A DNA stretch of 34,591 nucleotides from positions 1 through 34,591 of the forward strand of contig SHUW01000005.1 in the NCBI GenBank assembly GCA_009694465.1, read 5' to 3'. Each line of letters begins with the position of its first letter. The stretch's first letter is position 1. The position numbers were made by a program, and so were the translations under genes. This document shows positions 25,069 through 27,654 of the stretch, one piece after another. A model generated the notes under the pieces. It saw nothing but the letters and a program-made list of their open reading frames with translations. It searched no databases and was not told the origin of the DNA. This DNA is from Ilumatobacteraceae bacterium (lineage in GTDB: Bacteria > Actinomycetota > Acidimicrobiia > Acidimicrobiales > Ilumatobacteraceae).

Positions 25069-25749
25069 TCAGGCCTGAAGTCGATAACCGAGACCGCGAA
25101 CAGTCACCACGTGACGAGGGTTGGCGGGGTCTTTTTCTACTTTTGTGCGCAGTCGACGAATGTGCACATCAACTAAGCGACCATCGCCGAAATATCCGTA
25201 GCCCCAGACATCGTCAAGCAGTTGTTCGCGACTGAAAACACGACCAGGATTTTGGGCGAGTTCACAGAGCAGTCGAAACTCAGTTTTTGTGAGACCAAGT
25301 TCTATGCCATCTCGTAAGACTTTTCCTTCGTCGGGAATGATCTCGAGGTCGCCAAAGACGAGTTTCGGGTGAGCAGGATGCGCAGGGCGAGCTCGTCGTA
25401 GCAACGCACGGATGCGCGCCGATAACTCTTTAGGGGCAAAGGGTTTAGTGAGATAGTCATCAGCACCTGCCTCGAGACCAGCGACAACATCATGAGTGTC
25501 GGATCTGGCGGTGACCATCACAATGGGCACATCGCTGTGGCGACGGATCGTTCGGCACAGTTCAAAGCCGTCAATACCGGGCAACATGATGTCAATCAGT
25601 ACGACATCGGCTGGTTGGCGTAAGAACAAAATGACGGCTTCTTCACCGCTTGCAGCCTCATCAACAGTCCAGCCTTCATCTTCTAAAGCCAATTTGACTG
25701 CAGCGCGTATCCGCTCGTCATCTTCTACAGCCAGAATTCTGGTTCCCAC
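25069..25749 (-). CDS. mtrA: MtrA-like OmpR-family response regulator
   Basis: 226 aa. The receiver domain carries the acidic pocket Asp10-Asp11, phosphoacceptor Asp53 (VVLIDIMLPG), Thr80 and Lys102 (LTKPFAPKEL). The winged-helix DNA-binding domain covers about 128-226 with LTKTEFRLLCELAQNPGRVFSREQL and RRLRTKVEKDP ... TVRGLGYRL. Sequence and context (mtrB and an LpqB-like gene immediately downstream) identify it as MtrA, a regulator of cell-wall hydrolases, osmotic response and division in actinobacteria. The GTG at 25749 has CAAGAT 6 nt upstream, suggesting its own leaderless promoter besides read-through from the phosphatase gene 59 bp upstream. Confidence 0.92.
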   Translation of the reverse strand: MGTRILAVEDDERIRAAVKLALEDEGWTVDEAASGEEAVILFLRQPADVVLIDIMLPGIDGFELCRTIRRHSDVPIVMVTARSDTHDVVAGLEAGADDYLTKPFAPKELSARIRALLRRARPAHPAHPKLVFGDLEIIPDEGKVLRDGIELGLTKTEFRLLCELAQNPGRVFSREQLLDDVWGYGYFGDGRLVDVHIRRLRTKVEKDPANPRHVVTVRGLGYRLQA

Positions 25750-25755
25750 GCTTAC

Positions 25756-25761
25756 ATCTTG
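25756..25761 (-). promoter_or_regulatory. Candidate -10 element CAAGAT for mtrA
   Basis: On the minus strand CAAGAT ends 6 nt before the mtrA GTG. It fits the A2/T6 positions of a -10 hexamer but has C at position 1, so confidence is modest. Confidence 0.33.
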
Positions 25762-25808
25762 CCTGATGGAAGGGGTAGTAGTTGGCTAACTGGAATTGTT
25801 TTTTATCT

Positions 25809-26600
25809 TTACGAGGCAAGAATCGCCAAAATGGCTTGGTGAATGCCGGGAGTGCTGAGCAGTGTTTGCTCAGATCGAATAGGGGAACCTGAGAAATCAG
25901 AGGAGACAGCCCCAGCCTCGGTGGCGATGAGTAGGCCTGCGGCTAAGTCCCATGGTTGCAGAAACTCTTCGAAATAGGCGTCAAGGCGACCATCGGCTAC
26001 GTAGCACAGATCCGCCGCGGCGGCACCACATCGCCTGATGTCGCGAACCTGGGGGAGCATTTTCGCAATCCGCGTGCCTTGCGCATCACGGCGCTCTGAC
26101 GAATAGGAGAACCCGGTTCCAATCAGCGCCATGCTGAGGTCGTGGCAGGGTGAACATGTTAATTTCCGTGCACCGAGCCATGCCCCATGACTTCGAGCGG
26201 CGACAAAAAGTTCGCGGGTGACGGGCAGATAGACCGCAGCAGCCAAAGTTCCAGCCTTGTCGGTAGCGGCGATGGAGACGGCATAGCCAGAAAGGTTGTA
26301 TAAAAAATTCGTCGTGCCATCAATGGGATCAACTAACCAAGTAATGCCCGATGTGCCGGGTGTCTGAGTTCCTTCTTCACCGAGCACCGAGTCGTTGGGG
26401 CGTAAGTCTCCTAGTCGTCCAACAATAAGACTTTCACTTGCCTGATCCCACTGAGTGACGACATCGGTGGGCGAGGATTTGATATCAACGTTGCCTGTTC
26501 CTCGGGCGCGTCCAGTGGCGACAAGATCACCTGCCTGGCGCGCAATGCTGGCAGCGATATTCATCAACTCAAGAGCATTGTGGGGCGCGATAGGAGACAT
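25809..26600 (-). CDS. suhB: Inositol monophosphatase family protein
   Basis: 263 aa. Metal and substrate motifs of the family are complete: GEE (Glu75-Glu76), WLVDPIDGTTNF (Asp91, Asp94) and QPWDLAAG (Asp218). The Mg2+-dependent fold dephosphorylates myo-inositol-1-phosphate, histidinol phosphate, fructose-1,6-bisphosphate or PAP depending on subfamily. In an organism with a PimB'-like enzyme, inositol production for phosphatidylinositol is attractive, but histidinol-phosphatase activity is equally allowed by the motifs. It lies 6 bp after a small membrane-protein gene and 59 bp before mtrA on the same strand. Confidence 0.85.
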   Translation of the reverse strand: MSPIAPHNALELMNIAASIARQAGDLVATGRARGTGNVDIKSSPTDVVTQWDQASESLIVGRLGDLRPNDSVLGEEGTQTPGTSGITWLVDPIDGTTNFLYNLSGYAVSIAATDKAGTLAAAVYLPVTRELFVAARSHGAWLGARKLTCSPCHDLSMALIGTGFSYSSERRDAQGTRIAKMLPQVRDIRRCGAAAADLCYVADGRLDAYFEEFLQPWDLAAGLLIATEAGAVSSDFSGSPIRSEQTLLSTPGIHQAILAILAS

Positions 26601-26605
26601 AAATA

Positions 26606-26611
26606 ATTATG
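26606..26611 (-). promoter_or_regulatory. Possible internal -10 CATAAT before the inositol-phosphatase gene
   Basis: On the minus strand CATAAT (one mismatch to TATAAT) ends 5 nt before the ATG at 26600, overlapping the stop of the preceding gene. It may allow separate, leaderless expression. Confidence 0.25.
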
Positions 26612-26867
26612 CGCGGTCAGAGAGATCGCGCCACTCGCCGAGCGCCCTCAGGCTGAGAACAGCGACGATTGAAGTGCCACCTGAGGTCAAGACTGCGCCG
26701 ATCAATAGCCCGAGTCCGAGTGGTAGTGAACTTCTGCCGTCGTATTGGATGTCAACGAGGGCGTAACCAATCAATGAGCCGATGAGGCCCCCAAAAATAA
26801 TGGAGATAAAGGCCGCCGAGCGAGCGCCACGAGATGGCAGGGCGGAGAGTGGTCGTTCCTCGGGCAT
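26607..26867 (-). CDS. Small two-TM membrane protein of unknown function
   Basis: 86 aa. Two hydrophobic helices at about 17-40 (SAAFISIIFGGLIGSLIGYALV) and 48-74 (LPLGLGLLIGAVLTSGGTSIVAVLSL) are joined by a short polar loop; the ends are charged. No family recognised. ATG 26867 is fixed by TACGAT 6 nt upstream. It heads the minus-strand run leading to mtrA-mtrB and is divergent from the mannose synthase gene across 22 bp. Confidence 0.65.
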   Translation of the reverse strand: MPEERPLSALPSRGARSAAFISIIFGGLIGSLIGYALVDIQYDGRSSLPLGLGLLIGAVLTSGGTSIVAVLSLRALGEWRDLSDRA

Positions 26868-26873
26868 GCAAAC

Positions 26874-26883
26874 ATCGTAGGCT
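26874..26883. promoter_or_regulatory. Overlapping back-to-back -10 elements in a 22-bp divergent spacer
   Basis: The 10-bp core ATCGTAGGCT holds TAGGCT on plus (26878-26883, 6 nt before GTG 26890) and TACGAT on minus (26874-26879, 6 nt before ATG 26867). The two hexamers share the TA at 26878-26879. Both genes would be leaderless and would compete for one RNA polymerase site. Confidence 0.5.
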
Positions 26884-26889
26884 CACAAC

Positions 26890-27654
26890 GTGAGCCAAGG
26901 TTTGTTTACCCGTCAAATAGTTGTGGTGATCCCCACTTATAACGAGGCTGGAAACATCGAGAAAGTTCTCAATGGAGTTCGTGCCGCTCTCCCGCAGGCC
27001 AGATTATTGGTCGTTGATGATGACAGTCCTGATGGCACGGGTGACATTGTTGAGCGCTATCAGTCTTCTCATCGAACAGACGGCTTAGGTGAGGTCAGTG
27101 TTCTGCATCGCTCTGCTAAGACAGGTTTAGGGGCGGCTTATCGTGCGGGATTTACGACAGCCTTGTCAATGGGTGCAGAGATCTGCGTACAGATGGACGC
27201 CGATCTATCCCACGATCCGATGTATTTGCCAGCGATTGTCTCAGCCGTCGAGATGGGTGCTGATGCCGCCCTAGGAAGCCGCTACACGCCGGGTGGTCAG
27301 ATCGACAATTGGCCGCCTTTACGACGTTTTCTCTCACGCTGGGGGAATCGATTCGCTGCAGGCATGTTGGGTTTGGCGATCAATGACGCCACTAGTGGAT
27401 ACCGGGCTTATTCGGCCTCGGTTTTGCAGAAGATGGATTTTTCCACCGTGCAAGCTGAGGGTTACGGATTCCAAATTGAAATGACCCATCGCGCAGTGCG
27501 CAGTGGCGCACGCATGATCGAAGTTCCTATCCTGTTTACGGACCGCGTTGTTGGCGAATCGAAACTAAATCATCACATTATTGGTGAGGCTTTCACACTT
27601 GTCATGCAGTTGTGGTTCAGGGATCGACTGTGGCACCGCCGTCGACGTCGGTGA
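26890..27654 (+). CDS. ppm1: Polyprenol monophosphomannose synthase (DPM1/Ppm1-like GT2)
   Basis: 254 aa GT-A family 2 enzyme. IPTYNEAGNIEKVL (14-27), VVDDDSPDGTG (41-51), the DxD-like QMDADLSHDP (101-110), GSRYTPGG and NDATSGYRAY match dolichol/polyprenol-phosphate mannosyltransferases. It transfers mannose from GDP-Man to polyprenyl phosphate, the donor for extracytoplasmic mannosylation of lipids and proteins, complementing the PimB'-like enzyme at 16314. There is no C-terminal TM or fused Lnt domain, so an apolipoprotein N-acyltransferase partner, if any, is encoded elsewhere. The C-terminus is very basic (RDRLWHRRRRR). The stop overlaps the dinB GTG (GTGA). Confidence 0.85.
   Translation: MSQGLFTRQIVVVIPTYNEAGNIEKVLNGVRAALPQARLLVVDDDSPDGTGDIVERYQSSHRTDGLGEVSVLHRSAKTGLGAAYRAGFTTALSMGAEICVQMDADLSHDPMYLPAIVSAVEMGADAALGSRYTPGGQIDNWPPLRRFLSRWGNRFAAGMLGLAINDATSGYRAYSASVLQKMDFSTVQAEGYGFQIEMTHRAVRSGARMIEVPILFTDRVVGESKLNHHIIGEAFTLVMQLWFRDRLWHRRRRR

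Follow-up and report, generated by a model that had tools for sequence, protein, structure and literature searches.

Can a spacer of 22 bp hold the start signals of two divergent genes, and can these signals share bases? This question is raised by one locus in the window (the whole stretch of 34,591 bases that was analysed), which belongs to a genome of 1.48 Mb in 103 contigs, judged 69% complete. An earlier sequence-only reading had described two start codons here, each preceded at 6 nt by a -10-like hexamer, and a TA overlapping between the two hexamers; its coordinates, hexamers and distances proved exact when positions 26865-26892 were read again.

The spacer and its flanking genes

Read directly, this segment is CAT GCAAAC ATCGTAGGCT CACAAC GTG, that is CAT-N6-ATCGTAGGCT-N6-GTG. 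The minus-strand gene starts with an ATG whose A is position 26867 (CAT at 26865-26867), the plus-strand gene with a GTG that begins at 26890; 22 bp lie in between, and each of the two codons is the first start after an in-frame stop in the list of open reading frames. On the plus side, the hexamer TAGGCT (26878-26883) is followed by CACAAC (6 nt) and then by GTG; on the minus side, TACGAT (plus-strand ATCGTA, 26874-26879) is followed by GTTTGC (6 nt) and then by ATG. The TA at 26878-26879 is common to both TANNNT hexamers, which together make up the shared core at 26874-26883.

The plus-strand gene (26890-27654) encodes a GT2 glycosyltransferase of 254 aa (PF00535, 4e-27), predicted to be leaderless and similar to dolichol/polyprenol-phosphate mannose synthases. 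Its best solved-structure match is the dolichol monophosphate mannose synthase 5mlz (1.1e-30), while none of the 16 matched NCBIfam models reaches its cut-off and no curated equivalog is passed. DNA polymerase IV, DUF3040 and ROK genes follow in this run. The minus run begins with an 86-aa protein (26607-26867), also predicted to be leaderless, which has hydrophobic stretches (by eye), no Pfam or NCBIfam match, and relatives beside the GT2 gene. Next on the same strand come an inositol monophosphatase-family protein (25809-26600; PF00459, 3.2e-58, and synteny), an MtrA-like response regulator (25069-25749; NF040689), an MtrB-like protein and a Germane-domain protein in the position of LpqB. 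Names are best-hit calls; the models for MtrA, MtrB and LpqB are the best hits but stay below their curated cut-offs (270.8 of 300, 219.9 of 450 and 21.9 of 881 bits), and the gene order in the sister genome G019 agrees. G019 keeps this order, and so do the eight others that were looked at, within the extent of their loci.

The reading that we favour, and hold to be likely, is that of a bidirectional housekeeping promoter (sigma-70/sigma-A type) giving two leaderless mRNAs. Specifically, two -10 elements on opposite strands would share one TA, with -12 on one strand coinciding with -11 on the other, and a distance of 23 bp is predicted between the start sites. Polymerase could load in either orientation and, by steric exclusion, presumably never in both at once. 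Since each predicted start site coincides with a start codon, both mRNAs would be leaderless, one for the mannose-synthase-like GT2 and the other for the 86-aa protein and the inositol phosphatase. What the sequences themselves show is the coordinates, the hexamers, their spacing and their conservation; that the site is transcribed from these starts, that the two directions exclude each other and that translation is leaderless is what we infer. Several points count against parts of this reading. No sigma-70 consensus -35/-10 pair was found in 25600-27000, so that a -35 embedded in the opposing genes was also rejected as a candidate, and the AGG within TAGGCT might serve the plus gene as a weak ribosome site. 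In Mycobacterium tuberculosis, too, no conserved -35 was found (PMC3898074).

Conservation within and outside the genus

The shared-TA core is kept in 23 of 23 loci of the same genus, as ATCGTAGGCT in 22 and as AGCGTAGGCT in one (L008), which amounts to 229 of 230 core cells. The gap between TACGAT and the minus start codon is always 6 nt, whereas the gap on the plus side is 6 nt in 16 loci and 7 nt in seven. Around the core, the base that adjoins it on each side is invariant and most other spacer positions vary, the commonest base filling 91 of 138 cells in the six columns of the minus side and 82 of 138 in the first six columns of the plus side. An alignment of the spacer across relatives had been suggested as a check of both hexamers and both 6-nt distances; within the genus the hexamers and the minus distance are kept while the spacer drifts, but the plus distance may be 6 or 7 nt. 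Depending on the species, 15 to 51 nt separate the GT2 start codon from the codon further downstream that aligns with residue 12, and despite this variable N-terminus the start codon stays 6 or 7 nt from TAGGCT; the start therefore appears to follow the promoter. At one codon GAA stands instead of GAG in 22 of the 23 loci (GAA makes up 38% of such Glu codons in G019); as a hint of a -35 embedded in an opposing gene, this is too weak for use.

These counts need to be read with their sampling in mind. The GT2 search covered 61 genomes, 60 of which gave a match, and loci were taken from the best 30; the 24th genus genome (G012) gave no match to the GT2 query. The genus set consists of 22 loci from a scan that required a match to the 86-aa protein, plus L020, which was read by hand, lacks the 86-aa gene at a contig edge and is repeated by L038. 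Because the sequences are related, the locus counts are not independent events.

The near-invariance of the core also bears on a different explanation, in which a transcription factor binds it as an operator and the true promoters lie inside the opposing genes. The 12 bp of C-ATCGTAGGCT-C are almost invariant, as an operator might be, and a perfect 7-bp inverted repeat at the core (GGCTCAC-AAC-GTGAGCC, 26880-26896), overlying the end of the plus -10 and the start codon, is carried by the four closest species (L005-L008). Yet this repeat is missing from the other 19 of the 23 loci, the invariant part is just the two hexamers plus one base per side, and TAGGCT is likewise conserved in front of pfkA (18 of 20 loci), which is taken as a one-way promoter. 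We regard an operator as highly improbable. As for the repeat itself, a hairpin or terminator was rejected for the plus mRNA because a leaderless transcript contains just one of its arms.

Outside the genus, the picture differs. A match to the 86-aa protein was present in 56 of the 110 loci L005-L114, and exclusion of five repeats (L035, L036, L037, L044, L048) left 51, of which 22 belong to the genus and 29 do not; L004, the window's own site again, was excluded, and the spacer was read only at loci with this match, plus L020. The named relatives among the best 80 of 589 matches are mostly Acidimicrobiia, with further Actinomycetota records and one Ilumatobacteraceae (L037). The record titled Bifidobacterium breve (L035) carries a locus of Acidimicrobiia type and is probably a mislabelled MAG.

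Twenty of the 29 non-genus loci with both genes have separate hexamers, 10 to 87 bp apart, three share the TA (L033, L034, L040) and six have one hexamer only. TANNNT thus stands 6-8 nt from the start on both sides in 23 of the 29, and the six loci where the same scan misses one hexamer count against the promoter reading. Loss of the symmetric core with the genes retained had been named as the case that would speak against the site; this is not so within the genus, where 23 of 23 keep the core, and it is so for the 20 separate loci outside it. The overlap is therefore not essential to the gene pair, since in most of these relatives both genes are present, each with a hexamer, but without a shared core. 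On a tree of 52 loci, which unites the 23 genus loci in one supported clade, the shared-TA state requires at least four changes, three of them forced by starred branches. The tree was made by a quick method, has L028 on a long branch and L020 with 39% of positions filled, and does not order the shared and separate states as ancestral or derived. As both states occur on it with at least four changes, the gene pair, judged by its sequences, tolerates both layouts. L043 (about 2449-2501) appears to hold the core twice in tandem (AATCTAGGGT ... AATCTAGGCT), with a copy placed for each gene; such a duplication may offer a way between the shared and the separate layout.

The loci with separate hexamers also help with the idea that a true promoter exists in one direction only and that the second hexamer is kept as its -13 to -16 region. 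Each hexamer does occupy the other's upstream contact region, and the bases inside both are nearly invariant. However, in the 20 separate loci each gene has a TANNNT of its own 6-8 nt from its start, and in the genus both start codons keep their register in all 23 loci, so that a single direction seems unlikely to be the whole explanation. The claim that two leaderless-type starts diverge from one shared core, as far as sequences can support it, is borne out by those 23 loci.

Leaderless-type signals and shared cores elsewhere

The bidirectional promoter that we favour would be built from ordinary parts. In the sister genome G019 (800 kb, 710 starts), TANNNT lies 6 nt before 76 starts and 7 nt before 30, with 12 at 8 nt, 11 at 9 nt and 0-4 at each of the remaining distances up to 29 nt. 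The window's own genome (402 kb, 370 starts) has 41 at 6 nt and 17 at 7 nt, with 14 at 8 nt, seven at 9 nt and 0-6 elsewhere. A rough gene caller stands behind these counts and those of divergent pairs below. According to PMC3898074, 22% of expressed genes are leaderless in M. tuberculosis and TANNNT is found at 73% of primary starts; for Actinobacteria, PMC3160421 gives an average of 19.2% leaderless TA-led genes, in which TANNNT is placed some 12 nt ahead of the start codon. From the genome-wide peak at 6-7 nt and these published frequencies, TANNNT at 6 nt can be taken as an ordinary leaderless start signal in the genus, and on both sides of the window's spacer the first T of TANNNT stands about 12 nt before the start codon.

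Three control genes allow the conservation of the core to be put into perspective. All 20 loci given for the leaderless-type neighbour pfkA have TANNNT at 6 nt, and all 21 for an acyl-CoA dehydrogenase gene have it at 6 or 7 nt; for an ACT-domain gene (domain name by eye) it is found in 15 of 19, where three of the 15 (L205-L207) look spurious. Truncated or paralogous loci had been excluded, leaving 20 of 25, 21 of 30 and 19 of 30, respectively. As the controls are similar, the core appears to be conserved like a good one-way leaderless-type promoter, but on both strands.

Divergent pairs with such signals on both sides are found elsewhere as well. When starts were allowed to move towards TANNNT, 17 of 122 divergent pairs in G019 were leaderless on both sides, and two of these are separated by exactly 22 bp, one being the counterpart of the window's locus. 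The moving step shifted starts to TANNNT in 134 of 710 G019 genes, as compared with 0-14 for six control distances. Without it, G019 has 9 both-sided pairs among 140 and the window's own genome 3 among 61; this gene call did not list the divergent pair of the window.

More specifically, the exact geometry, CAY-N6-ANNNTANNNT-N6-RTG, occurs at four sites in the window's own genome versus one control site, and at 61 sites in 24 genus genomes versus 32 for the reversed control pattern. Sorted by sequence, 16 of the 61 are the locus of the window and ten are a selD-like locus, leaving 35 versus 32, a near-equality that counts against the promoter reading. No genome-wide preference for the shared-TA geometry is claimed, because the excess comes from these two conserved loci. 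Within the genus, the 18-bp form that keeps both start codons in register occurs less often than its control (14 versus 36), and hexamers set edge to edge gave 0 sites and 0 controls in the genus genomes.

With the reversed control occurring 32 times in 24 genomes, a chance coincidence of common TANNNT motifs has to be weighed for the window's locus too. Against this, the core is common to 23 of 23 orthologous loci while their flanks drift, and chance is hardly credible as an explanation. ANNNTANNNT occurs 15 times in the 34,591 bases (about 4e-4 per position), and its exact register in one given 22-bp spacer is thus unlikely by chance. The shared-core arrangement is nevertheless judged real because it is conserved at orthologous loci, and not because the pattern is rare.

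The second conserved site lies between a gene with AIRS domains, called selD-like after a motif, and one for a MOSC-domain protein that diverges from it. ORFs were checked at three of its ten loci (L003, L260, L270), with both present in L260 and L270. At L003 (1501-1528 of G000:C45), which is in the window's own genome, the ORF on the MOSC side ends after 20 codons and both hexamers remain; no tRNA was found opposite selD in L003. Altogether, 25 sites were opened. Real-looking pairs of long ORFs were also seen at L265 and L269 (domains on both sides) and at one site in G019 (74 and 262 aa), while L271 and L274 have two ORFs of over 100 aa each, one of each being judged spurious by eye. Most of the remaining opened sites have an ORF of at most 52 aa on at least one side.

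Reach of the site and comparison with known systems

The sequence-only reading had gone further, with one polymerase site dividing its traffic between the mannose synthase run and the run leading to mtrAB-lpqB. This part does not find support. The mtrA start region is present in 22 of the 23 genus loci, and in all 22 a -10-like hexamer stands 6 nt before its GTG (by eye), as CAAGAT in 18, TAACAT in three and CAACAT in one; in the window, CAAGAT and the 6 nt occupy 25750-25761 on the minus strand, within the 59 bp between mtrA and the gene before it. The first T of TANNNT is lacking in 19 of the 22, and the TANNNT scan itself found just the three TAACAT. The hexamer looks like a leaderless start signal that mtrA has to itself, its first base being weaker in most species, a reading that stays conditional because of these 19. 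Given this signal, the shared site need not control mtrAB-lpqB; its sole control of these genes was set aside as not needed, and it is probably not their only promoter. Read-through from it into mtrA is possible.

That bidirectional promoters based on -10 symmetry are known in bacteria, as had been noted, agrees with PMC10268837, where they are defined by starts 7-25 bp apart. The likeness lies in reciprocally overlapping -10 elements on opposite strands with divergent starts at such a distance, and the window's site shows this overlap at the sequence level, with a predicted spacing of 23 bp. That class usually has 18 bp with -7 and -11 co-located, a typical but not a required feature. In the window's site the spacing is 23 bp, which counts somewhat against the favoured reading, -11 coincides with -12, and leaderless products are predicted on both sides. 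In five E. coli bidirectional promoters, basal firing is reported to be too rare for the directions to compete unless one side is strongly activated (PMC12825309). Juxtaposed divergent promoters are described as common in M. tuberculosis, and prpD and its divergent regulator Rv1129c both map as leaderless, but a shared TA, as in the window, is not described in the portion of PMC3898074 used here. The TA-led genes of Actinobacteria carry TANNNT at this distance as well, though they are treated as single genes, with 0 occurrences of 'divergent' in the text of PMC3160421. No paper on divergent leaderless pairs sharing a -10 was found in the open-access literature; the 23-bp form may already be described in Warman et al. 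2021, which deals with bacterial bidirectional promoters of this symmetric kind.

Bidirectional promoters and juxtaposed divergent leaderless promoters are therefore already known, and the site of the window is a further, well-preserved example. It is tempting to go beyond this and to see in the TA-sharing 23-bp form a distinct class of bidirectional promoter suited to leaderless-rich genomes, kept here by selection since exclusive loading would fix the balance between the enzyme for a lipid-linked mannose donor and the 86-aa protein with the inositol phosphatase, but we consider this doubtful. If the favoured reading is true, one core of 10 bp would carry two promoters and, through the leaderless design, would also set the translation start of two genes. 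A genus with the shared core beside relatives with separate elements would then offer a natural series for asking whether the sharing of a -10 is useful or merely tolerated.
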